Below are positions 4,880 to 25,770 of a stretch of DNA of 64,000 nt, in pieces. The notes below the pieces were generated by a model. The model was not told where the DNA came from. It did no database searches and saw only the letters and a list, made by a program, of their open reading frames with translations. A program made the translations under genes and the position numbers. Each line of letters opens with the position of its first letter. Position 1 is the first letter of the stretch. The stretch comes from Botryococcus braunii (lineage: Eukaryota; Chlorophyta; Trebouxiophyceae): positions 336,003 through 400,002 of the forward strand of contig KV908400.1 in assembly GCA_002005505.1 (NCBI GenBank). Direction: 5' to 3'.

Positions 4880-5665
4880 CACACACCAGTTGCACCAACA
4901 AGTGGAAGTTCACCATATTTCTCAATTTTGGGCCCCGCAACTCGGCGTAGGGCCCAACATCACCCCTTGAGGCTGCGTCCCCTCCCCTCTGCCCGTCCGC
5001 ATTCACACGGGCCAAGCTTTCAGCCCAGCCAAAACATTCAGAAACACCTCAAAACAATCACGGATTGCTTGAAAATATTGCAGCGAAATGCTACCAAGGT
5101 GTCAGGCTCACGGCTTCCTTTCGGACCTTGGGCATGCAAAATTCCGTGCCTTCCCCGATGCTCTCCAAACTTCGCACCCCTTCTCCTTGCCACCACGGCC
5201 ACCCACTGGTATGCCTCTTGCAAATAGAAAGCCCTGGGAACGCCCTCTAAAGCTCTTGCAAACAGAGCCCTTACCTCCCCGGGCTTCAAACGGCCAGTCC
5301 CACCCTGCAACTTCAGGGCGGTACTGTACCATCTTTGTCGCGCAGGGCCCACCAGATTTCCTTTGTACTACGGTAAGTTGCAGTACGCCTCACACGTGTA
5401 CTGCCCATGGCCCTCAAAACCCCTGATTAAATATCCTGAAATGCGGATTTCTGCAGCCCAGATTTGCGCCTGACAAGATTTATTGTCATGGGTGTTGACA
5501 CCCATGACAAGAAGTTTTGTCACAGCGTTACTCACGCAGGTCTGGCCTGCAAAACCCCACTTTGCGCTTACAGCCCACAAACTTTTATATCAAGGTTCTA
5601 CATGAGCAAGGCAAAACGTGGGAAGCTAGGCCGACGAGACACAGCCCCTACACATGACCAACACT
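4880..5665. repeat. Dispersed repeat P, copy 1
   Basis: The body begins CACACACCAGTTGCACCAAC and runs to about 5510. A side segment (5515-5665) is shared with copy 3. The body is shared with copy 2 (7971-8517) in direct orientation and with copy 3 (25,788-26,345) in inverse orientation. On the minus strand a frame reading QWVAVVARRRGAKFGEH is partly conserved between copies, but copy 2 has a stop in it, so I do not call a gene. A hairpin with GTCATGGGTGT arms lies near 5490-5511. Confidence 0.8.
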
Positions 5666-5718
5666 TGGTGTAGTGTAAAGATGATGTCCGAAGTAAGTAC
5701 TTGTGGAAGTAGGTTCAC

Positions 5719-6160
5719 CTGTTTATCAACCCGTAAGCATATGTTACTATCTTATGCAACATCAGTTACGATCATGCTATCGTCAACTGATCACCGCTGC
5801 CAACCCGTGTAAACACTACGCTTTTACGTGTAGTGTTTACAATATGATATAGTTATGCAGCCACCACTGTCATACTACAGACAGCAACACAACTCCTGAT
5901 ATTCTCAGTCACTCTAACATGCAAAGCAACGCGCGTTGCTACGAACTCGAGCAACATCTCGGCAGAGATATCCAGACAGGTCCTTTCGGGCAGTCACACA
6001 AAATAGGACTCCAGGCGACATCTTTAGAGATCCTAACTGTCTTAGTTACATGGTGTTATTAATTACCTGTTTATTAATCCGTAAGTATATGTTAGTATCT
6101 TACGCAAGCATCAGTTACGATCGTGCTATCGTCAACTGATCCCCTGCACAAATAACGCCA
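5719..6160 (-). repeat. Hairpin-exon element family 2, copy e (5'-truncated)
   Basis: The first part (about 5719-6035) is an intron-less array like 15,981-16,258. The junctions CTGATCACC/GCTGCC and CAACTCC/TGATATTC show both introns absent. A GT...AG-type linker follows on the minus strand, then the last exon of an intron-containing copy, broken off just inside the position of the first intron (about 6145). It abuts copy d head to head. A hairpin with GTAAACACTAC arms lies near 5808-5840. Confidence 0.7.
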
Positions 6161-6162
6161 TC

Positions 6163-7484
6163 GTGTTGTGTATTGAAAGAGAGCATAAGGTACGGATCCG
6201 AATGTACGGATGTACATGTACGTAAGTATGTGTGCTCTAGAGCACACATACCTACAAAGAGAGATCTCTCTCTGAATCACATCATTGCTTTTAGGCACGT
6301 CACTTGATTGGACGAAGGGACATATTATGTGCATAAGAAAACGCATGCATCAGGACACAAAAATTGTTGTTATGTTTAGGAGCCCTGGAGAGAGAGAGGT
6401 CTCCATGGGAGTTAGAAGTTCATAGCCCACCATGCAAGTACGGGTCTCCATGAAGTTCAAGGAACTGTGATAGAGATTCTATCGAGAGTGTAGACGTGTA
6501 GGACAGATGTGCAAGATATGGCATAAGTCTGTATCTCGTGGTGTGACAAGTGTACTTCACACACTTAGGTGTGGTGATAAAGTACACCTCTCTGCGGTGA
6601 TCTTCGATTGTACGTAACGCACGATCGAGCTAGGAGGGGCAGATCGGCAGTTTGTTCCTCAGACAGTTGGAGCTGTCTATCGAAGTTTCCTGGAGTCCTA
6701 TTCAGTGTGAGTCGCTGAAGAACCTGTCTGGAACCTGCCGTGATATTGCTTTGACTAATAGCATGCTTTGCAAGTGCATCTGGGAAAAGTAAAGAATATC
6801 GGTAAGCCCCGGTTAGTGCATCGGTTGTGTGAGAGCATGATGGTGCAAAGGTGTTAATGAAGGTCCATTTAATTATAAATACTAAATTACATTTCAATGC
6901 TATGCAGGAGGTTGTTTTACTGTCTGTTGTATGACAGTGGTGGCTGCACAAGTGTAGTGTTTACACGGGTCAGTAGCGTTATGAACAACTACTGGAACGC
7001 ATGTGCATTGATGAAAGACATTGTGGTATTTAGTTACTGTCATAAGAATGTTACTTAAGGTTGCGATGGCGTTATACGTGCAGGTGATCAGTTGACGATA
7101 CCACAATTGTAACTGATGCTTGTGTAAGATAGTAACATATGCTTACGGGTTGATAAACAGGTAATAAATAACACCATGTAACAGATAGTTGGAGCTTTTT
7201 ATCGAAGTTGTATAATGTCCTATTCAGTGTGAATCGCTGAAGGACATGTCTGCAACTTGCCGTGATATTGCTTTGACTAATAGCATACTTTGCGAGTGCA
7301 TGTGGAAAAAATAAAGAATATCGGAGGTTGTTTTACTCTCTGTTGTAAGACAATGGTGGCTGCATAAGTGTCGTTTTACACGGGTTGCCACTGCCAACTT
7401 GGCAGCGGTGATCAGTTGACGATAGCACGATCTTAACAAACGCTTGTGTAAGATAGTAACATAAGCTTACGGGTTGATAAAGAG
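6163..7484 (+). repeat. Hairpin-exon element family 2, copy d (leader + intron-containing array + intron-less array)
   Basis: 6163-6660 is a leader also present, inverted, at 16,860-17,240. The intron-containing array spans about 6663-7160. Its first intron is 6802-6907 (AATATCG|GTAAG...TGCAG|GAGG, 106 nt). The second, about 6978-7083, ends TGCAG but has a degenerate donor (GTTATG). The linker 7161-7184 starts GTAATA and ends ACAG. The intron-less array 7185-7484 reads AATATCGGAGGTTG straight across the first junction. Exon hairpins include GATATT/AATATC, ACTGTC/GACAGT and ATCAGTT/AACTGAT. No frame stays open through the array, so it is probably non-coding. Confidence 0.75.
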
Positions 7485-7539
7485 GTGAAACCACATCCGC
7501 AAATACGTACTTCGGACCTCATCTGTACTCTACACATCG

Positions 7540-12989: not shown

Positions 12990-14875
12990 GTCAGGATCAG
13001 ATGCGGACATTATCTAACGAAGGCACGAGAGTAAAAGTGTTGCGAGTGCCTTACTGCCGCCGTGCCGTACATAGGTACCCCAAAGGCATGCCCTAAAGGG
13101 TAAGAGCCGATGAGTGGTAGGTAATTTTTTCTTAGCGCTCGAAGTTTGCTGGGGCTGGCTCACAGCTTGCTTGCAGTTGCAGGGCTGTGCCCCTTCGAGG
13201 TTTTCGGGGGACGCTTGACAGTGTGTTGAGTATAGAGTGGAAGCAGCCGTAACCGTCAGCGGTACGTTAGTATGCAGAAAGTCATATCCTGTGAACACCA
13301 CCTTTCAATGTCAATAGCTATCTAGATCAGTGCTCGCACTGCCATCTAGATCTGCCGACTGCTTTCTTCCAAGGCGCCCTTTGCCCTCAGCAGTCACAGG
13401 AGTTTCACGGCCACTCCCAACCGTACGCTACTAGCCAGTGTGGACATCTCAACACACAAAGTAGCTTTCACTGTTCTTCCAACAGTAACAACAAGCTTGC
13501 AAGCTCCAGTATTGTTATGTGCAAGATCCCCTCGTTATCCTGAAACCATAGAATACTGAGCATACATTCAACAGCTTGGAGCTCGAGCACGATGCATTCC
13601 ACATCCATTCGACTCTTACAATGGTTAGACATATCTACCTGTGAACACCACCTTTCAATGTCAATAACTATCTAGGTCAGTGCTCGCACTGCCATCTAGA
13701 TCTGCCTGCAACCCGGGCGTTACGTCTTACTGGTGTGTTCATCAACGTTCATTTAATATATCTAAACCACTGTCAAACAACACACTTACTATCAACATGC
13801 GTGCACGTACCGACTGCTTTCTTCCAAGGCGTCCTTTGCCCTCAGCAGTCACAGGAGTTTCACGGCCACTCCCAACCCTACTGCACAAAACATGTGAAGG
13901 CAGCAGATTTCTTATCTAAACAGTTATTCTAACCAGGAGAAGCTTGCTTGTTATCCGTTTCTGTACGCACCGCTACTAGCCAGTGTGGACATCTCAACAA
14001 GTAGCTTTCACTATTCTTCCAACAGCAACAACAAGCTTGCAAACTTCTGTTCAACAAACACATGCATTCGTTCAAGATCGACGATAATATCAGCATGCAT
14101 GCGCCTAAACCCTGCGATCGCAGCCACCCGACTGCGACCGTTACTAGCGCCGCAGATCGCAAACTTACCAGTATTGTTATGTGCAAGACCCCCTCGTTAC
14201 CCTGAAACCATACAATACTGAGCATACATTCAACAGCTTGGAGCTCGAGCACGATGCATTCCACATCCATTCAACTGCCAAGCTCGTTCGCGATCTGGCG
14301 TTTCTATTCCTGATCGTAACCGACAGTAACGGTCCACATCCCTTCGAGATGCCGTACCGTACTGCATGGCCACATAAACATCCCTGACTTGGCCCTATGC
14401 CAACGTATAACTCTATAGCTACACCAGGTGTTCTAATCAAACATACGTGTACACACTCAATGGAGCCTTTGACTTGTGACCACACCGTCACTTGTACAAG
14501 ACCTGTACTGCATGGAGGTCGCTATATGATCATCCTGACAGATCAACACGCATTAACCTAGATACGCAAGCAAGCGTATACGTATCTGCTCCCTCGTACT
14601 CCACAAGTGGAGAAATTCAAGTAATACAATGTTTCCTAAAACCATTTGGTAAACTGATATAGTCCTTGAATATTCTACCTTGTATCTAGGTACGTTTGTC
14701 ATGACGTAACTATACGTACTTATCAGTTAACACAACACAGTGGTTTCGCAGTACAAGCACCCTTTCAGTTGAGTTTATGCTTGTGAGAGAGTTCTCAGCC
14801 ACTAACGGTGATGACAGAGAGGAGGAGAAAACATATGACTCGTTCAAAACACTGCATTCACATGTCAAATCGTGC
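12990..14875 (-). repeat. Hairpin-exon element family 1, copy a, inserted in unit A
   Basis: It interrupts unit A (12,985/14,876). On the minus strand a leader (about 14,280-14,740) precedes an intron-containing array, 13,639-14,276, with introns 14,047-14,168 (122 nt), 13,881-13,970 (90 nt) and 13,706-13,810 (105 nt), all GT...CAG. A 24-nt GT...AG linker (13,615-13,638) leads to the intron-less array 13,289-13,614. Removing the three introns gives 321 nt against 326 nt; the difference is one 5-base gap (CACAA). Stems include GTATT/AATAC, GCTACT/AGTAGC, GACTGCT/AGCAGTC and ATCTAGAT/ATCTAGAT. No frame is open throughout, so it is probably non-coding. Confidence 0.82.
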
Positions 14876-15644: not shown

Positions 15645-15840
15645 TTGGTTGGAACTTTAAGGCACTCCGGGTGCTTGTTTCTGTTGCCAATCAGGTCACT
15701 GACATTGGTGTCGTTGCCTTGCTATACACACACAGCTGGAGAATGACACCCGACAAAATGGGTGTCGTTCTCCAGCTGTGTGTGTATAGACACGGAGGGT
15801 GCCTGCGTGGTGAGGCACCCTCCGTGTCCTCACCATGCAG
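15645..15840 (+). repeat. Module G, plus-strand copy with two strong hairpins
   Basis: Starts TTGGTTGGAACTTT, then GGCACTCCGGGTGC, and ends ATGCAG followed by GTAACT, like the modules at 3.8-4.6 kb read on the other strand. It contains a stem with 30-nt arms (15,722-15,751 with 15,760-15,789, one mismatch) and a second with 16-nt perfect arms (15,789-15,804 with 15,813-15,828). Confidence 0.8.
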
Positions 15841-15980
15841 GTAACTAGGATTATATTCGAGCAATAAGGTGCAATAAGGTACAATCCAGAACAATACAAG
15901 ACAGGTTGTTGATATGGGGTTGTTTGTTTGTGTTGTGTAGAGATGATGTCCGTGGTACGTATTTGTGGAATTAAGTACAC

Positions 15981-17240
15981 CTGTTTATCACACAGTAAGC
16001 AAACGTTACTATTGCAAACATCAGTTACGGCCGTGCTCTCGACAACTGATCACCGCTGCCAACCCGTGTACACTCTACACTTATGCAGCCACTACTGTCA
16101 CGGCAGACAGCAAAACAACCTCCTATATTCTTTACGTTTCCCAGATGCACTCGCAAAGCATGCTGTCAGTCAAAGCAATATCACGGCAGGTTCCAGACAG
16201 GTCCTTCAGCGATTCACACTGAATAGGACTCCAGGCTTCGATAGAAAGCTCCAACTGTCTCATTACATTAAGTTATTTATTACCTGTTTATCACCCAGTA
16301 AGCAAATGTTACTATTCCAAGCATCAGTTACGGCCGTGCTCTCGACAACTGATCACCTGTGCGTATAATTCCATCGCAAACCCAAGTGACATTCTTACCA
16401 CAGTAACGAAATAATACACTGCATTTCTACCAATGTACATGCTTATCAGTAGTTGTTTGCACCGCTGCCAACCTGTGTACGCTCTACACTTATGCAGCCA
16501 CTACTGTCACAGCAGACAGCAAAACATCCTCCTGCATAGCATTGAATGTCATTTAGCATTATAACTAAATGGACCTTCATTAACACCTTTGCACCATCAT
16601 GCTCTTACACAACCGATGCACTAATCGGGGCTTACCGATATTCTTTACGTTTCCTAGATGCACTTGCAAAGCATGCTATCACAAGCAATATCATGGCAGG
16701 TTCCAAACAGGTCCTTCAGCGATTCACACTTAATAGAACTCAAGGCGGCTTCGATAGGAAGCTCCAGCTGTCCGAGGAACGAGCTGCCGATCTGCCCCTC
16801 CTACCTTGATCGCGCGTTACGCACAATCACAGATCACCGCAGAAAGGTGTACTTTATCACCACACCCTAAATGTGAGAGGTACACCTGTCACACCCACGA
16901 AGTATAGACTTATGCTGTATCTTGCACACCTGTCCTACACGTGTACACTCTCGAAGGATCTCTATCACAGTTCATTGAACTTCATTTGCTGAGACCTGTA
17001 CTTGCATTATTGGCTATGAACCCATACCTCCTATGGAGAGATCTCTCTCCAGGTCTCCTATACATAACAGCAATTTTTGTGTCCTGATGCAGGCGTTTTC
17101 TTTTGCACATCATGTGTACCTTCGTCCAATCAAGTGACGTGCCTAAAAGCACTGGTGTGAATCAGAGAGAGCACCCATCCTTACGTACATGTACATCCGT
17201 ACATCCAGATCCGTACCTTATGCTCTCTCTCAATACATGA
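15981..17240 (-). repeat. Hairpin-exon element family 2, copy c
   Basis: On the minus strand the leader is 17,240-16,772. The intron-containing array is 16,284-16,771, with introns 16,532-16,635 (104 nt; AATATCG|GTAAG...GCAG) and 16,357-16,462 (106 nt; GGCAGCG|GTGCAA...ACAG). The linker 16,259-16,283 starts GTAATA and ends GAG. The intron-less array is 15,981-16,258. Summed exons of the long array are 278 nt and the short array is 278 nt. Stems: GATATT/AATATC, CTGTC/GACAG, GCTGC/GCAGC and ATCAGTT/AACTGAT. The same leader and array occur at 6163-7484 on the other strand. Confidence 0.82.
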
Positions 17241-17347
17241 CAGTTTGTCATCAGACAATGATAGTTGTTGAATCACCCCATGAGCGGGATAGGTTAGCTC
17301 GAATCGTGTCAATCTGCCTAATAAGAGGGAGAGAGAAAGTAATTGAC

Positions 17348-17589: not shown

Positions 17590-18786
17590 CGTGAACACGC
17601 GGTGTTGTGGAAAGGCAATTAAAGCAGAGGTCAGTGACAGCCGGTCACCGCACAGTTTGGCAACTGTGGTAAAAAGATGCTGGGTAGTTAAGATGCTAGT
17701 CTTGTTAATACTGTTGCTGTTTGTTGTGTATTGGTTGGAGGATGCCGTAACTGTCAGCGGTACGTATGCCGTCAGAGTGTCATTTCCTGTGAACACCACC
17801 ACGTAATATCAATGTCTATATAGACCAGTGCTCGCACTGCCGTCTATATCTGCCGACTGCTCTCTTATCAGGACGCCCTTGGCCCTCAGCAGTCCCAGGA
17901 GTTTGACGGCTACTCCCAACCGATCGCTATTAACCAGTGTGTAACTCTCAACACACAAATAGCCTTACTGTTCTTCCAACAGTAGCACACAAGCAATGCA
18001 ACTCCTGTATTGTAATGAGTGAGATAGTCGTTTATCAAGAAGTCATTCAATACAGAGCCAATACATATCAGCTTGGAGCTCGAACCTAGATGTATTCCAC
18101 ATCCAATCGACTGGTTACAATGGTTTATGTATATTTACCTGTGAACACCACCACTTAATATCAATGTCTATATAGACCAGTGCTCGCACTGCCGTCTATA
18201 TCTGCCTGCAACCCGAGCGTTACGATTTACTGGTGGGTTCATTAGTGTCCTTTAAATATATCTAAACCACAGCACACACACACACTACCTATCCACATAT
18301 GTGTACGTACCGACTGCTCTCTTATCAGGGCGCCCTTGGCCCTCAGCAGTCCCAGGAGTTTGACGGCTACTCCCAACCGATCTGCACAATACGTGGTTCA
18401 TTAGAGATTTTAACAAAACAGTTATTCAACAAGCAGGAGCATGCTTGTTGTTGCATATCTGTACTCACCGCTATTAACCAGTGTGTAACTCTCAACACAC
18501 AAATAGCCTTACTGTTCTTCCAACAGTAACACACAAGCAATGCAACTCCTGCAACACACGAAACATGTAATGCTTCATTATCAACAGAAACATCATCATG
18601 CATGCGCTTGAACCCTACGATCGCAGCCACCCGACTGCGACCGTTACCCTTGCCAACGATCGCTCGCTTACCGGTATTGTAATGAGTGAGACAGTCGTTT
18701 ATCAAGCATTCATTCAATACAGAGCAAACACATATCAGCTTGGAGCTCGAACCTAGATGTACTCCACATCCAATCGACTGCCAAGC
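17590..18786 (-). repeat. Hairpin-exon element family 1, copy b, left part
   Basis: The intron-less array is 17,787-18,110 (324 nt). A 28-nt linker (18,111-18,138; GTAAAT...CCAG on the minus strand) separates it from the intron-containing array 18,139-18,777. Introns are 18,206-18,310 (105 nt), 18,382-18,468 (87 nt) and 18,549-18,671 (123 nt). Summed exons are 324 nt, exactly the length of the intron-less array. The element is split at CAAGC (18,782-18,786) by the chromovirus and resumes at 24,869. A long minus-strand frame over 18,367-18,903 runs through introns and into the LTR and is not a gene. Confidence 0.82.
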
Positions 18787-19008
18787 TGTTATGGCAATCA
18801 GCGGAAGAGTATTTGACTGAGGCAAAGAGATCCGTTCATGAAGACGAAGATAGCGACTGATTACAATGCGTGAAGTTCTCGTCTTAAATGCGAGAGCGGC
18901 CAATTATTGAATGTACGCGTTCAACTAAGTATATATGAAAACCAGAGAGAACTGTACGGGATCTCCCCATGCACGCATATGAAGTACAAGGTAATGGTTG
19001 TCTTTACA
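18787..19008 (-). repeat. 3' LTR of the chromovirus (222 bp)
   Basis: TGTTATGG...TTTACA on the plus strand; it matches 24,643-24,868 apart from a few bases. The flanking CAAGC (18,782-18,786) is repeated after the other LTR, giving a perfect 5-bp target site duplication. Confidence 0.95.
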
Positions 19009-19021
19009 TTCCCTCCCCCTT
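19009..19021 (-). promoter_or_regulatory. Polypurine tract
   Basis: Reads AAGGGGGAGGGAA on the minus strand, directly next to the 3' LTR. This is where plus-strand DNA synthesis would be primed. Confidence 0.85.
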
Positions 19022-19595
19022 GGAATGAAGATGACGGGCAAGGGCCCTTCTTCATGAAACGCAGATCATGAAGATAGATCAAAAAGGCAAAGGAAACCCT
19101 TCCGATCTTGCGCAATTAACCCACACACATCGGGTCAATTACAAGTTGCAGAGAGACAAGACATTGGAAGATACTCCAGGCAGGGAAAAGAGGAACAATT
19201 CCCTCCAGTAGCACAGAAGATGGCCTTTAAGGGCCTTCCCTTCCAATAGAAAGTCGCATCTAGGGAAGAACTGTCCACCACTATAAGTTGATTCCAAGGG
19301 GCATGGCTCCCAATCCATATTACTCCCCCCCCATCATTCAACCCAAGCACAGTAGAACAGTAAGCCAGAAAAATAAGGTACAGTGTACCTTATGCTGTAC
19401 TGTGTGTTGTACTGCTTTTTGAAAGAGGGTCCACAGAGCCTAATTGCAAGGCAACAAACACCATAACGAGTACCATCCCAGCCCCAAACCCTCCCAACCC
19501 AGAACCCACCCTCCCAAGTCTAAGCGCAGCCGCAGTACAGAGACCCATGCGGCGAAGATCCAGGCTGCCAAGAGGAAATCATTGCTCCAGCAAGG
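19022..19595 (-). other. Non-coding 3' region of the chromovirus
   Basis: No open frame that can be supported. A short palindrome (AAGGTACAGTGTACCTT) lies near 19,374-19,390. Confidence 0.6.
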
Positions 19596-20606
19596 TCACG
19601 GCAGTACTGGCGCAGCCGCGATAAGGTCTGTCAGGTGCCTGACATTCCGAAGCGCCTCCCAGGAATTATCATGATCTGACCAGCCTTTCCATTTCGCAAG
19701 AAAGCGCCAAGAGCGTCCAAATTTCCTCTTGCCCAGGATGGTCTCCACTTCATAGTAATCTCCTTGTCTGCCTGTATACAAAGGACCAGGGTTTGTAGGT
19801 TCTGCAGTAGGGTTAGTGGACGATACGTATGGCTTCAATTGAGACACATGAAAAACAGGGTGAATCCTAAAATCAGCAGGCAATTCCAGCTTAAATGCAT
19901 TCACACCTACAGCTTCCAGGATACAGAAGGGGCCCATATACTTAGCTGATAGTTTAGAGGACAACCCAGGAGGGAGCTGGTTTTGGCGCACAGCCAATAA
20001 CACTGAATCTCCAACCTGGAAAGGATGATCCCTCCTCTTCCTGTCAGCATAGTATTTCTGGCGCTGTTGGGAAGATGAAATATTAGATTTGGCACTATGC
20101 AAAGCCTTTTGCAAGTCCCTCACATATTCAGCAACGGCGGGCACCGACGAGCGCGTAGGAACAGCAGTGGACAAAGGCGTAAGAGGGTTTCTGCCATGGT
20201 TCAGGAAAAAGGGGCTATGCTGAGTAGTGGCCTGTACTGAATTATTGTAAGCGAATTCCACAATGGCCAAATACTTGCACCAATCATCTTGCCTGGGACC
20301 CACAAACCCTCTCAGCATGTCTTCAACGGTCCTATTAGCCCTCTCAGTCTGACCGTCGGTCTGAGGGTGGTACGCAGTAGACATATTCAGTTGCGTGCCG
20401 AGTAACGACATGAATGCCTTCCAAAAATGACTAGTAAACCTAGGGTCTCTGTCAGATACAAGGGAAGTAGGCATGCCAAACCGTCTAAATACTGTGTCAA
20501 TGAAGATCTGAGCCAACTGAGGTGCATTCACAGTTTTAGAACAAGGCGCTAAGACAATCAACTTGGTCAAACGATCGACAAAGACTACGATGGAGTCATG
20601 TCCACA
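19596..20606 (-). CDS. Chromovirus integrase C-terminal half with chromodomain (downstream of an in-frame TGA)
   Basis: Reads in the same frame as the RT/RNase H/integrase ORF upstream and is separated from it only by TGA at 20,607-20,609. It starts with integrase core sequence: VVFVDRLTKLIVLAP, SDRDPRFTSHFW (catalytic D) and HPQTDGQTERANR (catalytic E). A GPY-like segment follows (KYMGPFCILEAVG ... HPVFHVSQLKPY). A chromodomain ends the protein: YYEVETILGKRK, WRFLAKWKGW and NSWEALRN, the aromatic-cage region. Chromodomains of this class direct insertion towards marked chromatin in related elements; that role is inferred here. There is no natural start codon close to the TGA, so this is the broken 3' part of Pol rather than a separate gene. 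Confidence 0.9.
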   Translation of the reverse strand, partial: CGHDSIVVFVDRLTKLIVLAPCSKTVNAPQLAQIFIDTVFRRFGMPTSLVSDRDPRFTSHFWKAFMSLLGTQLNMSTAYHPQTDGQTERANRTVEDMLRGFVGPRQDDWCKYLAIVEFAYNNSVQATTQHSPFFLNHGRNPLTPLSTAVPTRSSVPAVAEYVRDLQKALHSAKSNISSSQQRQKYYADRKRRDHPFQVGDSVLLAVRQNQLPPGLSSKLSAKYMGPFCILEAVGVNAFKLELPADFRIHPVFHVSQLKPYVSSTNPTAEPTNPGPLYTGRQGDYYEVETILGKRKFGRSWRFLAKWKGWSDHDNSWEALRNVRHLTDLIAAAPVLP

Positions 20607-22145
20607 TCACAATGGCAGGTCTGTCACCAGATCCAAAGAAACACTCTCCCAAGGCGACTCTGGTACAGGCAAGGGCTGCAACAATCCAAAAGGTACTTTG
20701 CTAGTCCCCTTCATCTGTTGACAGCTAGTGCACTCTCTGCAGTACCGACGTACGGCAGACAACATGGCTGGCCAATAGAAGAACCTGCACACTTGCTCAG
20801 CAGTCTTGTGAGCGCCCAAATGGCCTGAAAAAGGTGTGCTGTGACACTCTGCTAGGATCCTCTCCCTCACAGGGCCTTCTGAAACATAAATCTTGTCATG
20901 CTCGGTATACAGCAACCCCCTTTTCCAACTCACGGTTCCCTGATCCAACAAACCAGGGACCTGTGGATCATTTTCATAACCCTTACTCAACTCTTCCAAC
21001 AAGGTGTCTGACACAAGAGAGGAGACATGCAGAGTAGCTAAGTCTGCGCGCCGACTCAACGCGTCCGCGACCACATTATCAGTACCTTTGACGTATCTAA
21101 TGTCAGGCATGAACCTCATAATGTCAGTCAAAAAGCGCTCTTGTCGATCAGTACGCGTCGGTGCAGTTAAGAGGAATTTTAAAGCTTTTTGGTCAGTGTA
21201 CACAGTAAACTTCCCCCCAATCAGCAAATGCTTCCACTTACGCAGGGCGTGTACAAGGGCCAATAATTCTCTGTCATATGGAGCCAACTTTCGCTCACTG
21301 GGCTGCAGTTTCCTAGACTCAAAGGCGATCGGCTGCAGTCCCTTACCTTGATCTTGCTGTAACACACACCCAATAGCAAAGGCAGATGCATCCACATGCA
21401 CGACAAAAGGTTTTTGCAAGTCTGGTGGGAGCAAACAAGGAGCAGTACACATCAGATGTTTCAATTCACGGAAAGCCTTCTCATGCAAGGCATCCCATTG
21501 CCATGGAGCATCCTTTTTAAACAACTCAGTAAGAGGGAAGGCAACATGAGCAAAGTGGTCTGCAAATGTATCATAAAACTGTAGAAGACCCATGAACGAA
21601 CGAAGTTCAGACACACAGGTAGGGGTGGGCCAATTCATGATAGCCTCAACCTTCTTCGGGTCCACCCTCACTCCCTCACTGGAAATGACATGTCCCAAAT
21701 ACTCCACCTCGGGTGCGCAAAACAAACACTTGGAGCGTTTACAGAAAAACTGATGGTCTCGTAGTGCCTGAAGTACAAGTCTCAAGTGTTGCAAGTGTTC
21801 CTCAAAAGACTTACTATATATGAGGATGTCATCTAAATAAACCAGCACAAACCTGTCTAAGTAAGGCGCCAGAACAGTATTCATCACGTATTGAAACGTT
21901 GCGGGGGCGTTTGTCAGACCAAAGGGCATCACAGTAAATTCATAGTGACCATACTTTGTCTTAAAAGCAGTCTTCTCTATACTATTCTCATGCATACGGA
22001 TCTGGTGGTACCCAGAGGCTAAGTCAAGTTTAGTAAAGAGCTTACTACCACACAACTGCTCGAACATTTCATCGATACGTGGCAACGGGTGTTGGTTTCT
22101 TATAGTCAATTTGTTTAGAGCGCGATAGTCAATCACAACCGCCAA
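20607..22145 (-). CDS. Chromovirus reverse transcriptase, RNase H and integrase N-terminal half (frame-shifted)
   Basis: RT motifs: VIDYRALNKLTIRNQHPLPR, FTKLDLASGYHQIRM, PFGLTNAPATFQ and the catalytic FVLVYLDDILIYSK. RNase H follows (VHVDASAFAIGCVL, ERKLAPYDRELLALV, VYTDQKALKFLL). The integrase HHCC zinc-binding region is HSTPFSGHLGAHKTAEQVCR ... CRECTSCQQ. The frame differs by one base from the protease ORF upstream: after KKDGGWR, one base is missing relative to the expected continuation into VIDYR. The ORF ends at a TGA within the integrase. There is no ATG at its beginning; it would only be made as part of Pol. Confidence 0.92.
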   Translation of the reverse strand: MAVVIDYRALNKLTIRNQHPLPRIDEMFEQLCGSKLFTKLDLASGYHQIRMHENSIEKTAFKTKYGHYEFTVMPFGLTNAPATFQYVMNTVLAPYLDRFVLVYLDDILIYSKSFEEHLQHLRLVLQALRDHQFFCKRSKCLFCAPEVEYLGHVISSEGVRVDPKKVEAIMNWPTPTCVSELRSFMGLLQFYDTFADHFAHVAFPLTELFKKDAPWQWDALHEKAFRELKHLMCTAPCLLPPDLQKPFVVHVDASAFAIGCVLQQDQGKGLQPIAFESRKLQPSERKLAPYDRELLALVHALRKWKHLLIGGKFTVYTDQKALKFLLTAPTRTDRQERFLTDIMRFMPDIRYVKGTDNVVADALSRRADLATLHVSSLVSDTLLEELSKGYENDPQVPGLLDQGTVSWKRGLLYTEHDKIYVSEGPVRERILAECHSTPFSGHLGAHKTAEQVCRFFYWPAMLSAVRRYCRECTSCQQMKGTSKVPFGLLQPLPVPESPWESVSLDLVTDLPL

Positions 22146-23470
22146 CCACCGTCCTTCTTGGGGACAAAAAGGATGGGAGCACCGTAAGGACTAGATCTGG
22201 GCCTGATGTACCCTCGTTCCAGCAACTCCTGCAGCTGTGCCCTAAGCTCAGCAAGCTGAGCTCCCGACAGCGGGTAAATGCGGGAGGCAGGAGGTCGAGC
22301 ACCAGGTTCCAGGTGGATTTCGTGGTCTCCGACTCGAGGTGGTGGAAGACTGTCAGGCAAGCCTGATAGGACATCCGAGAACTCTTGCAACAAGTCCTCC
22401 AACCCCGGCTGGGCATGTATTGGTTCAGAATCCCGTTGTACAGGTTTCAACTTGAGCACGTACAATTCTGTCAAATCAGAAGCAAATCTATCCAACTCTA
22501 TGGCAGAAATCACATATTTAGGCGCATCAGAACGCTGACTACCCACCAAAACATGTGTGCTTTCACCATCAACAAGACAAACAGTGTTCAAGCGCCAATT
22601 TACACATGGATTAAACGCTGTCAACCAGGGCTTTCCTAACACAACATCATAGGTATGCAGCTCTGTAGGCAAACAATCCACTCGGAACTGAAACGACCCC
22701 ACAGACAAGTCAACTGCACACACCTGATCAGTTACCTTGGCTCTACCATCAGCGAGGTTCACTGTCAACAACGAGTTGAGAGGCATAGTGGGTAAAACAA
22801 GAGCATGCATAAACTCTTCACTCACAAAATTAGCTGTAGCACCACTATCCAATAGCACCCTACATGCAACACCCTGCACCAATCCCTCAAACTGGATACA
22901 CGTATGTGACAAGTCAGGAGTCGCTACAGTAAAATCTGCGCTCATCTGTGCAATATGATGAAGGGGCTGGTAGGTGAGTTTACTAGGTACAGCTACAAGC
23001 CTAGTAATGACAGACACCTCAACCATGTCCCGCCCGAAAACACTCTTAACAGTGGGAGGCGCCTGAATCGCAGTAGATTCTCCCCATAACTGCAGTAGAG
23101 ATGTCCAAGGGATAACGATGGTCGCATGGCGTTGCTCCTGCAGTTCTGGCCCTACAGCCTCCCCACCTGTGGACCTGGGGCAAAGCAGTGTTACCCTATC
23201 CCCGGGAAGGGCCCGTGTAATCACTCTTTCCCAAGCCATGGGAGCAGCTTCAGAACTCAAGGAAACAACCAACTCATGGGATCCATCAACATGCGTCTCT
23301 CTACCCTCACACTGCTCACAAGCAGGGGTGATCAGCCCAAAAGGGGTTTCAGACACAGGCAAGCGTTGCGAACTCGTCACATGAGTCACAACACTCTCAG
23401 AAAAGGTGCGTAGGTAGGTAACAAACTCGTCAAACGCGGGAAGAACCGGGATCCCTGTTTGAATCTCCAT
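22133..23470 (-). CDS. Chromovirus protease and start of reverse transcriptase
   Basis: The ATG at 23,470 (MEIQTGIPV) lies 36 bp after the Gag stop, in the same frame. The aspartic protease active site is LLDSGATANFV. The RT lead-in follows (IYPLSGAQLAELRAQLQELL, then GYIRPRSSPYGAPILFVPKK), ending WRL at a stop created by the one-base shift. Gag and this ORF are separated by tandem TAA TAG stops (23,509-23,504), so Pol would need readthrough of two stops or re-initiation at the ATG. Confidence 0.9.
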   Translation of the reverse strand: MEIQTGIPVLPAFDEFVTYLRTFSESVVTHVTSSQRLPVSETPFGLITPACEQCEGRETHVDGSHELVVSLSSEAAPMAWERVITRALPGDRVTLLCPRSTGGEAVGPELQEQRHATIVIPWTSLLQLWGESTAIQAPPTVKSVFGRDMVEVSVITRLVAVPSKLTYQPLHHIAQMSADFTVATPDLSHTCIQFEGLVQGVACRVLLDSGATANFVSEEFMHALVLPTMPLNSLLTVNLADGRAKVTDQVCAVDLSVGSFQFRVDCLPTELHTYDVVLGKPWLTAFNPCVNWRLNTVCLVDGESTHVLVGSQRSDAPKYVISAIELDRFASDLTELYVLKLKPVQRDSEPIHAQPGLEDLLQEFSDVLSGLPDSLPPPRVGDHEIHLEPGARPPASRIYPLSGAQLAELRAQLQELLERGYIRPRSSPYGAPILFVPKKDGGWRL

Positions 23471-23506
23471 GGTACCAACACCTGTCACACCCCACAGCCA
23501 AGCCTA

Positions 23507-24580
23507 TTAGGCAGCCGTTTTGTGTTTTACTTTTCTCATTTCAGGGTGTAAGACCCAGCATGCATCGACATTATGTCCGGGTTTGCCGCAATGGGGGCAG
23601 GTAGGCTTATTAGCCTCCTGAGCCGGGGGAGAAGGTGTGGGTTTGGTCTGGGATCCTCCGGAGGGAAACCCCTTCTGCCCGCCACCCTGAGGAGGGACAC
23701 TTGCATGCAGATCAGATACTGCAACTGCAAGTGTGAACACCTCTTCCAGCGTCTGCGGACGCTGCACTGTAATCGCCCTGCGCAGGTCATCCCGACACCC
23801 ACGCTTAAACACAAACATTAACATCGCATCTGACATGCAGTCAGGTGCTTTGGCCCTACACGCATTGAAATGCGCAACATACTCCCTCATGGACCGTTTT
23901 CCTTGTCTCATGACAAGAAAAGGCTCAAAGTAAGTATCCGTCAGCTCCACTGGTCGGACGGCCTCCTGTAAAGCCTGCATGTATGCGTGGAACGTTGCCA
24001 ATTCCACGGCTTGCCCTTTAGCTGCCAATTGAGTCCGTGAGACGAGCCAATCAAGAGCCTTGCCCCGTAGGAACATACTGGCCATATCAACGGCTACGTC
24101 TCCTGACAGATCTACACGATTCGCACGCAAGTACGTACGAACTTGCAGAAAATGGGCATCCAACATGTCAGGATCTCCATAATACAACATGGGTTCAGGA
24201 AACTTGGTCTTCACAGCCGAGATGGGAACTTCCCTCAAGGTGGGGTCCGGAACCACAGGAGACGGTGCTGGGAAGACCATTCCACGCGAGCGCATCTGTG
24301 CTAGAAGAGATGCATCACTTAGACGGCTTGCATCTTGCACCACAGCACTGCCTGGGCGGCTCTCCGCCTCCTCATCAGTGGTGTCGTAAGTGGCTCCCGG
24401 GTCAAAGCCCCGAGCCAGCATCGACTCGTATAAAGGTTTGGAAACAAAAGTAGACACATCTACACGCTCAGGATCAACAAAATTCGGCCCTGAAGTAGGG
24501 ATTCCAGCAGGAACTATCTGCTTCCTAGGCGTCGTAAAACTGACCCGCTTGCGCGGAGCCCCTGTCCTGGTTCGTCTCAT
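23507..24580 (-). CDS. Chromovirus Gag
   Basis: The ATG at 24,580 gives MRRTRTGAPRKRVSF and a protein of about 357 residues. The middle has the retrotransposon Gag pattern (DMASMFLRGKALDWLVSRTQ ... FEPFLVMRQGKRSMREYVAHF). One zinc knuckle, CPHCGKPGHNVDAC (C-X2-C-X4-H-X4-C), lies near the C-terminus. It packages element RNA into particles in the cytoplasm. It starts about 60 bp after the LTR, is intact, and ends at TAA followed at once by TAG. Confidence 0.9.
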   Translation of the reverse strand: MRRTRTGAPRKRVSFTTPRKQIVPAGIPTSGPNFVDPERVDVSTFVSKPLYESMLARGFDPGATYDTTDEEAESRPGSAVVQDASRLSDASLLAQMRSRGMVFPAPSPVVPDPTLREVPISAVKTKFPEPMLYYGDPDMLDAHFLQVRTYLRANRVDLSGDVAVDMASMFLRGKALDWLVSRTQLAAKGQAVELATFHAYMQALQEAVRPVELTDTYFEPFLVMRQGKRSMREYVAHFNACRAKAPDCMSDAMLMFVFKRGCRDDLRRAITVQRPQTLEEVFTLAVAVSDLHASVPPQGGGQKGFPSGGSQTKPTPSPPAQEANKPTCPHCGKPGHNVDACWVLHPEMRKVKHKTAA

Positions 24581-24628
24581 CACAAACGCACCTAAGCCAA
24601 AGAAACAAGAAGATCAAGCGACAACTAT

Positions 24629-24641
24629 GTCGCCGATACCA
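24629..24641 (-). promoter_or_regulatory. Primer-binding site
   Basis: The minus strand reads TGGTATCGGCGAC, two bases after the 5' LTR ends. TGGTATC matches the complement of the initiator methionine tRNA 3' end used by many plant LTR elements. Confidence 0.7.
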
Positions 24642-24642
24642 G

Positions 24643-24868
24643 TGTTATGGCAATCAGCGGAAGAGTATTTGACTGAGGCAAAGAGATCCGTTCATGAAGA
24701 CGAAGATAGCGACTGATTACAATGCGTGAAGTTCTCGTCTTAAATGCGACGCAGAGCGGCCAATTATTGAATGTACGCGTTCATCTAAGTATATATGAAA
24801 ACCAGAGAGAACTGTACGGGATCTCCCCATGCACGCATATGAAGTACAAGGTAATGGTTGTCTTTACA
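24643..24868 (-). repeat. 5' LTR of the chromovirus (226 bp)
   Basis: Same sequence as the left LTR with a 4-base insertion and a few changes. CAAGC follows at 24,869-24,873, completing the target duplication. Confidence 0.95.
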
Positions 24869-25350
24869 CAAGCTCACTCGCGATCTGGCGTTTCTATGCA
24901 TCCTGATCGTAACCGGCGGTAACGGTACAGTTCCTTTCGAGAGGCCGTACCGTACTGCATGGCCACATAATCAACCCTGACTTGGCCCTATGCCAACGTG
25001 TAGCCCTATAGCCGCACCAGGGATCCCAAACTTATACACGTGTACACACTCAAAGGAGTACCTTGTGACCACACTGTGACCACACCGTCTGTTTACCTTG
25101 TGACCACACTGTGACCACACCGTCACTAGTACAAGACCTGTACTGCATGGAGGTCACTACATGATCAACCTGACTGATCACCATACATTACCCTAGATAC
25201 GTAATCAGGCGCATCTTCTTCCTTGTACTCCACACGTGGAGAAGTTCAAGTTATACAATGTTTCCTAAAACCATTTGATAAACTGATAGTGCCCTTGTAT
25301 CTAAGTACGTTTGCCGTCACGTATCTATACGTACTTATCAGTTTATACAA
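24869..25350 (-). repeat. Hairpin-exon element family 1, copy b, right part (leader)
   Basis: Continues the sequence interrupted at 18,786 and matches 14,277-14,740 of copy a (GATCTGGCGTTTCTAT, GCCGTACCGTACTGCATGGC, TACTCCACACGTGGAGAAG). It carries an extra 39-bp duplication of the ACCACACTGTGACCACACCG segment near 25,060-25,130. Homology to copy a stops near 25,350 / 14,740, the likely 5' end of the element. Confidence 0.8.
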
Positions 25351-25770
25351 CACTGTTGCTCAAGTGCAGGCAGTCGGCTGGGACTGTAGCTGGAGGAGCA
25401 CACACTTACGACCTGTCTGCATGTGTACGGGTGCGGTGACGCATGCTGTTTAGTGGTATTGTGTTAATGTGTGGTTGCTGCAGTGTAAGTGAACCATCTT
25501 AGTGTACAATCCAGCCTCCCAAACAGCTAAGGGACGGAGTCTGGATTGAGTATAGGAAGGTACTTGCTTGTAGCCGTCAAGAGTCTTATCCGTGGAGAGG
25601 TAGCTCATTGACAGACCTTTCATGTAACGGAATTGTGGTAAAAAGATGCTGGGCACTTGAGATGCTATTTTATACAGTTGGTGTTGCTCAAGTCCAGACA
25701 GTCGGCTTGGACTGTAGCTGGAGGAGCACACACTTACGACCTGTCTGCGTGTGTGCAAGATACGCCGAAT
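25350..25770. repeat. Direct repeat pair of about 85 bp
   Basis: The first copy is at about 25,354-25,432, the second at about 25,681-25,757. Both read GTTGCTCAAGT(G/C)CAG..., then GACTGTAGCTGGAGGAGCAC, then ACGACCTGTCTGC. The sequence between them partly resembles 17,660-17,710 (GTGGTAAAAAGATGCTGGG). No gene is recognised. Confidence 0.75.

Follow-up and report, generated by a model that had tools for sequence, protein, structure and literature searches.

Paired arrays within a solo LTR

In the stretch of the Botryococcus braunii genome analysed here (64,000 nt; contig KV908400.1, positions 336,003 to 400,002 of the forward strand; hereafter the window) we found two related arrays next to each other on the minus strand (Table 1). 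The longer array, L, aligns as the shorter array, S, plus three GT..AG segments, and S has the form of spliced L, with L read from 14,276 to 13,639 and S from 13,614 to 13,289. An earlier note on this DNA had described three extra segments of 105, 90 and 122 nt, each GT..CAG on the minus strand, and our alignment confirmed them together with a single 5-nt gap between S and spliced L. The note also held that the flanks join base for base, which is correct for introns 2 and 3, where the joins lose no match, but not for intron 1, where the canonical GT..AG placement loses one. Its count of one to two substitutions was too low: 11 or 12 of 321 bases differ between S and the L exons, according to which of two alignments is taken, and together with the gap this makes the pair older than first thought.

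Ungapped direct repeats of 109 nt (96%), 72 nt (97%), 69 nt (97%), 61 nt (85%) and 29 nt (100%) lie within one 2-kb stretch. Since the same arrangement also recurs at many other places in the genome, the likeness of S and L exceeds chance. A coding function of S in this copy was rejected, as there are stops in all six frames. The label of a hairpin array proved unremarkable, because the fold of S RNA had a z of -1.68 and 7 of 100 shuffled sequences folded at least as well; a structured RNA was rejected as an explanation on these grounds. Rfam families were rejected too, with only two matches, both to miRNA families, below the gathering scores and at another place.

Copies of this region lose their homology abruptly, some 460 bp before L at one end and some 65 bp after S at the other. 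TG..CA ends (TGTTGTG... and ...ACA) together with an exact 5-bp target-site duplication (TSD) were found by script in 11 of 22 scanned copies of the same family, F1, and the LTR end lies 65-66 nt after S in each of these 11. From the sharp shared boundaries, the TG..CA ends and the TSD CACTG we conclude that the copy described above (copy a), 1,514 bp in length, is a solo LTR. Its layout, U3 - L - spacer of about 24 nt - S - U5, is repeated in other copies and in a very divergent second LTR family. A TATA-like AATAGAAA sits thirty-two nt upstream of L.

Table 1. Coordinates of the LTRs, arrays and proposed signals in the window
Feature	Position	Strand	Basis
Solo LTR, copy a, family F1, 1,514 bp, TGTTGTG...CTCAACA	13224..14737	-	boundaries common to copies elsewhere
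Target-site duplication CACTG, 5' side	14738..14742	-	sequence
Target-site duplication CACTG, 3' side	13219..13223	-	sequence
U3-like region upstream of L array	14277..14737	-	comparison of copies
TATA-like AATAGAAACGCC, putative promoter element, starts 32 nt upstream of L start	14297..14308	-	conserved in alignment of copies
L array, copy a, four exons and three introns; first base is the putative transcription start	13639..14276	-	alignment
Intron 1, 122 nt, GTAAGT..GAACAG	14047..14168	-	alignment to S
Intron 2, 90 nt, GTGCGT..GTGCAG	13881..13970	-	alignment to S
Intron 3, 105 nt, GTACGT..TTGCAG	13706..13810	-	alignment to S
24-nt spacer GTAGATATGTCTAACCATTGTAAG, 5' splice site at start, TGTAA near end	13615..13638	-	sequence
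S array, copy a, four L exons fused, intron-free, ends TTCACAG/GATATG (3' splice site)	13289..13614	-	alignment
Proposed fourth intron (spacer and S), 350 nt, GT..AG, putatively spliced	13289..13638	-	sequence
U5-like region	13224..13288	-	comparison of copies
LTR, copy b, family F1, TSD AACAG, interrupted by Ty3/gypsy chromovirus	17722..25352	-	copy comparison, TSD
L array, copy b	18139..18779	-	alignment
Spacer GTAAATATACATAAACCATTGTAACC, copy b	18113..18138	-	sequence
S array, copy b	17787..18112	-	alignment
LTR, family F2, TSD CAAAC, two introns; L from ~16,773, S ~15,981-16,259, spacer 16,260-16,283	15931..17242	-	alignment
S array of second F2-type copy, its L upstream from ~6,661	7184..7487	+	alignment

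Other arrays and neighbouring elements

On the plus strand of the window F2-type arrays were found at 7,184-7,487, forming a complete pair, and at about 5,665-6,163, where a fragment is left. Copy b of F1 is interrupted by a Ty3/gypsy chromovirus (18,787-24,868), which is present in pieces encoding gag, protease, reverse transcriptase, RNase H, integrase and a chromodomain. Flanked by the TSD GCTTG and ending in LTRs of its own (about 226 bp), it was inserted 12 nt before the start of L. We considered whether the arrays belong to the LTR of this neighbouring element and rejected the idea, because the chromovirus with its own LTRs and TSD is an insertion in copy b. In genome searches with the two ends of the chromovirus, matches were found at the best 40 places scored out of 1,430 candidates and at the best 40 out of 524. 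Between the F1 copy and the F2 LTR, at 15,711-15,805, lies a nearly perfect long inverted repeat with weak Rfam miRNA matches below the gathering scores, which is likely a small foldback element. In the description of the race B Botryococcus assembly, LTR elements are stated to predominate among class I elements (PMC11286282).

The F1 LTRs belong to a Ty1/copia element

A search of the assembly with S gave 174 matches, and the best 40 of 197 candidate places were scored. A complete element was found on contig C516, where two F1 LTRs (L020, the 5' LTR, and L019) flank pieces of a copia pol. In sense order its internal ORF pieces carry zf-CCHC/Pol_BBD, gag_pre-integrs/rve, SH3_retrovirus and RVT_2 domains (four of six pieces with a domain match, two without), with integrase before an RVT_2-type reverse transcriptase as is the copia pol order, and both outer flanks read CAAGG. 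These domains between two F1 LTRs and the matching flanks identify F1 as a Ty1/copia element. The earlier statement that the element contains no reverse transcriptase is hence true of the solo LTR copy a but not of this relative. A Penelope-like element was rejected as a candidate, the reverse transcriptase being of the RVT_2 copia type and TG..CA LTRs being present. The pol evidence comes from F1; internal coding of F2/F3 was looked for in L049 and not found. Among six protein matches to the F1 gag-protease piece the closest was from Botryococcus braunii, with 88% identity over 90% of the query.

After the LTR in L017 we found GGTTATGGGCCCAC, a candidate primer site with divergent forms in L013, L020 and L022. 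It presumably is a copia-type site, for which the pairing partner is the anticodon arm of initiator tRNA-Met. Its complement, the 14-mer GTGGGCCCATAACC, had 887 + 1,011 = 1,898 matches in the genome and the reversed control none; the 1,898 matches are perhaps the primer sites of many copia elements.

The LTRs of F2 and F3 are 77.8% identical over 1,274 nt, whereas those of F1 and F3 are barely alike even under lenient scoring (65% over 109 nt, 69% over 84 nt). That they share the layout nonetheless indicates that it is old. One LTR, L013 (C16:577000-584500), is chimeric, with an F2-type U3 (83% over 460 nt), F1-type L and S and a switch near the L start, which suggests an exchange between families at the cDNA end. 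On contig C735 (L022, L023) three F1 LTR copies with near-identical S arrays stand in tandem 5.66 kb apart, explained either by an LTR-internal unit that was recently amplified as DNA or by an assembly effect.

Intron content of the arrays

Of 59 S-like places, 15 were the same place seen from overlapping loci and 4 were set aside (Ns or locus ends). The other 40 were aligned with introns allowed, and 39 of these are distinct, since L032 is the same place as the array at 7,184 in the window. Three introns were found in 25 of 26 F1 arrays and two in 13 of 14 F2/F3 arrays. A lenient search placed GT..AG within 10 nt in 97 of 106 segments; more strictly, 86 have such ends at no cost in matches, 11 reach them only by losing 1-4 matches, and 9, most of them from arrays that are decayed or poorly aligned, lack such ends. 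We infer that the L segments are spliced as introns in the RNA.

S follows its own L

For the comparison of S with L across copies 22 of the 26 F1 arrays were used. L036:2727 does not align and L016:4896 is divergent, and both were omitted together with two of the tandem C735 copies, which are nearly identical. The 22 include both LTRs of one element (L019 and L020), and their 231 pairings are not independent. Over these pairings 8,834 two-state sites unite each S with its own L, 21 unite S with S and L with L, and 9 are crossed. The own grouping is favoured in 228 of the 231 pairs, two pairs tie (one being the C516 LTR pair), and only L012/L013 opposes it, with three S/L sites and no own sites. 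These counts are from a refined exon comparison, which replaced a preliminary tree with rough exon ends, where several arrays, including recent duplicates and L024, had their nearest neighbour in another copy and not in their own partner. With 8,834 sites against 21, a single inherited duplication is ruled out. As the earlier note held, a plain tandem duplication of the DNA is not supported, and there is good support for an RNA intermediate. The note had further pictured a retrocopy placed beside its source; the RNA intermediate stands, while in place of a local event the pair is a built-in part of the LTR, renewed at each retrotransposition.

The timing can be read from elements with two LTRs. 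When S and L of both C516 LTRs were compared, 24 of 302 columns varied: 11 in L and 4 in S of the 5' LTR alone, 5 in L and 3 in S of the 3' LTR alone, and one three-state column in which L and S of the 3' LTR agree. None of the 24 splits S from L and none is a two-state split of 5' from 3'. This four-way star implies that all four sequences were identical at birth and have drifted since. In three further elements, taken as 5'/3' LTR pairs by spacing and strand, very few of 294 sites each varied: two in C500, both in L of the 5' LTR only, one in C14, in S only, and two in C193, one in L of the 3' LTR only and one splitting S from L. C193, C500 and C14 thus showed no two-state 5'/3' split, and among them only the one S/L site of C193. 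The young L049 has an S that matches the L exon blocks (143, 79 and 74 nt) without a single difference. The star in C516, the few variable sites in these elements and the identity in L049 indicate that S was made equal to spliced L during retrotransposition. As far as the sequences tell, S is spliced L at the birth of an insertion, and later gene conversion does not keep S like L.

Spacer and joints

The last exon of L (exon 4 in F1, exon 3 in F3) ends in CAG, and the spacer after it opens with GTAAAT, GTAATA or a similar sequence. The same CAG closes S, in front of U5. A script found AG/GT at the joint of L and spacer in 31 of 39 arrays; in 36 of the 39, TGTAA lies close to the end of the spacer. 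The eight spacers in which it did not find AG/GT include that of L020, the 5' LTR of C516. Spacer and S together read as a well-formed putative fourth intron, which in F1 holds the only nearby TGTAA, a motif that we take to be the poly(A) signal of green algae (chlorophytes).

The bases between TGTAA and S in F1 were G (10 copies), C (6), CG (3, all from one tandem array), TG (3) and CC (1); in F2/F3 they were AAGA (4), AATG (3), TG, AAGT and AAG (1 each). Among copies matching the search motifs the L start had a single form in 21 of 23 and in 12 of 13 matches, while the S joint was variable. A variable S joint with a constant L start suggests that the joint is remade in each cycle at the cDNA end. 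The two LTRs of C14 differ at the S joint (AATG vs AAGT), which is unexpected from one event; but this contig starts inside an internal region, and the two may therefore not be a true pair.

For F3, exact joints were counted genome-wide: 35 L starts, 64 spliced E1/E2 joints, 46 unspliced E1/intron joints and 36 E2/intron joints. The distance from the L start to the spliced joint was 658-728 nt in all 26 partnered cases. In the cycle proposed below, the first exon of L in the 3' LTR should also act as an acceptor, and intron-free LTRs lacking S would be expected, with the joint about 130 nt from the L start. None of the 26 F3-type L starts that are followed by a spliced joint has one at that distance, which speaks against the cycle. 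Nine F3 L starts had no exact spliced partner, and five of these were read. C394 is a normal LTR with a substitution, C109 is the ordinary F2 array L031, and C810, C817 and C111 (L055, L056 and L058) represent one S-less LTR in three places. It has the layout U3 - E1 - intron 1 - E2E3 - U5 with no spacer and the same flank each time, and looks like one locus in a duplicated region or in duplicated contig ends. Incomplete splicing of a leader could have produced it, as could recombination of the two E2 copies, and it was not counted as support. Apart from this locus on three contigs, other copies carry both halves wherever both are readable, a point that the earlier note had raised. About 30 of the 64 spliced joints had no exact unspliced partner upstream; a few of these carry other marks of L. 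Joints skipping exon 2 occurred at two places, both rejected as chance matches with no LTR sequence around them, and a joint skipping exon 4 in F1 had no match.

A triple array

One locus (L050, on C384) carries three arrays in the layout U3 - L - spacer - [E1E2] - spacer - [E1E2E3] - U5. The middle copy joins E2 straight to the spacer, and its E1 and E2 equal those of L. The last S differs from L in 2 of 143 bases of E1 and in 1 of 79 bases of E3, the latter being a change in L as judged by L049. The E2/spacer joint occurs once in the genome and shows no homology that would explain it, and the 3' LTR of the element is cut off in U3. The middle copy fits a leader in which the E2 donor was spliced to the CAG that ends L exon 3 and intron 4 was kept, followed by reverse transcription; read in this manner, L050 shows that an exon-end CAG can be used as a splice acceptor. 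An exact exon deletion at the DNA level is another conceivable source of the missing segment. Other copies in which the short array lacks different segments had been named in the earlier note as evidence against a spliced origin. L050 is the one such case, and as the missing segment is exactly one exon it supports the RNA reading.

Proposed rewriting of S in each cycle

In the reading that we consider probable, the arrays represent the leader transcribed from a Ty1/copia-type LTR, and S is rewritten from the spliced leader in each cycle through splicing of a fourth intron and transfer to S. The LTR would consist of U3, L as the leader (with three introns in F1 and two in F2/F3), the spacer of about 24 nt, S and U5, and transcription would start at the first base of L. 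As the splice sites and products suggest, both the L introns and the intron formed by spacer and S would be removed from the 5' leader, leaving the exons, U5 and the primer site. The 3' end of the RNA would hold unspliced L and the spacer, with cleavage after TGTAA just inside S. Strong-stop cDNA of the spliced leader would end at the first exon base and transfer to the start of S at the RNA 3' end. The new LTR would then inherit L with its introns from the 3' end and receive an S copied afresh from the leader after splicing, so that each cycle yields one S; retention of intron 4 would produce a triple array. With S as an acceptor that matches spliced cDNA, the element could use leader introns without losing them, which is the likely purpose of the pair. 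Two RNA pools, similar to those of BARE (see below), would be one way for the 3' L to stay unspliced and for the transfer to avoid exon 1 of the 3' L.

Among other explanations, renewal of S from spliced L might proceed without fourth-intron splicing, if the reverse transcriptase jumped between the direct repeats and deleted one, which would make S a patchwork with parts of the old S and parts of spliced L. Retroviral reverse transcriptase does delete repeats when it switches templates, and the extra array of L050 indicates that leaders with spacer and S are apparently copied at times. Such a patchwork should leave sites shared between different S arrays, yet these number only 21 against 8,834. 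The AG/GT at the spacer start in 31 of 39 arrays also speaks against it, as does L050, which implies that the CAG of the last exon works as a splice acceptor, and we regard this path as unlikely.

DNA gene conversion between adjoining L and S, which would keep their exons alike, is more doubtful still. Gene conversion can take place between adjoining direct repeats of 60-140 bp, but conversion within each LTR would be expected to leave sites at which L and S of the 5' LTR together differ from those of the 3' LTR. None of the 24 variable sites of C516 is of this kind in two-state form (the three-state site has L and S agreeing in the 3' LTR), nor is any in C193, C500 or C14. Introns were not seen in S either: within 1,500 nt a second unspliced joint was found for 0 of 46 E1/intron 1 and 0 of 36 E2/intron 2 joints, and the E2/spacer joint of L050 is without homology that could have guided an exchange.

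A single old retrocopying event next to the source, with the pair handed down from then on, would account for the layout and spacing common to all readable copies, but we give it almost no credence because S should then group with S, which it does at 21 sites against 8,834. Just as improbable is that S is original and the L segments are independent intron gains, in line with the 'three precise intron gains in one copy' that the earlier note had entertained, for although L minus the segments equals S, other copies have them at the same positions in the exons, and the segments of different copies align with each other at 77-89%.

Comparison with known systems

F1 shares with Ty1/copia elements of the Drosophila copia type the pol order with RVT_2 last, gag_pre-integrs, the integrase core, TG..CA LTRs and 5-bp TSDs. 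It differs in having two copies of the leader in the LTR, one unspliced and one spliced, of which the latter is apparently renewed in each cycle, and we know of no copia element with such a pair. Penelope-like elements likewise keep introns and form tandem partial copies with direct terminal repeats, but unlike F1 they are not LTR elements and have neither a copia pol nor a TG..CA LTR; they are not known to have a spliced/unspliced pair. Some retroviruses, HTLV-1 and foamy viruses among them, have a splice donor in R and resemble F1 in that splice signals lie in the transcribed part of the LTR. Theirs is a donor only, serving subgenomic messages, and their genomic RNA is left unspliced at that place, unlike that proposed for F1.

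The barley copia element BARE is described as having transcripts in spliced and unspliced pools, of which only some are competent for reverse transcription (PMC3735527). Its splicing removes part of the coding region in favour of Gag, and its LTR holds no spliced copy. The LTR1 lentiviral vector resembles our case in its altered path of first strand transfer and, in one version, a leader intron; in contrast it is engineered, omits first strand transfer and renews nothing (PMC5542766). A search of titles and abstract openings in the open-access literature, with subscription papers and preprints outside its scope, did not find an LTR with a spliced and an unspliced leader side by side.

Implications

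We lean towards the view that this LTR carries both a leader gene and a landing pad that is rewritten each generation. S would then be a heritable record of parental splicing, mistakes such as that in L050 included, and the divergence of S from L in a solo LTR would tell the age of the insertion like a clock. In this green alga a mobile element appears to carry introns in its terminal repeats safely through a life cycle via RNA, by means of a stored intron-free copy. Introns are expected to be lost when a sequence passes through spliced RNA, which is why retrocopies lack them. If our reading is true, this would be a new way round intron erasure, with the processed and the unprocessed leader stored side by side. 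The picture of first strand transfer would change as well, the acceptor being the spliced twin and not the repeat where transcription starts, and genomes would hold a readable archive of splicing outcomes together with a dating tool for solo LTRs.
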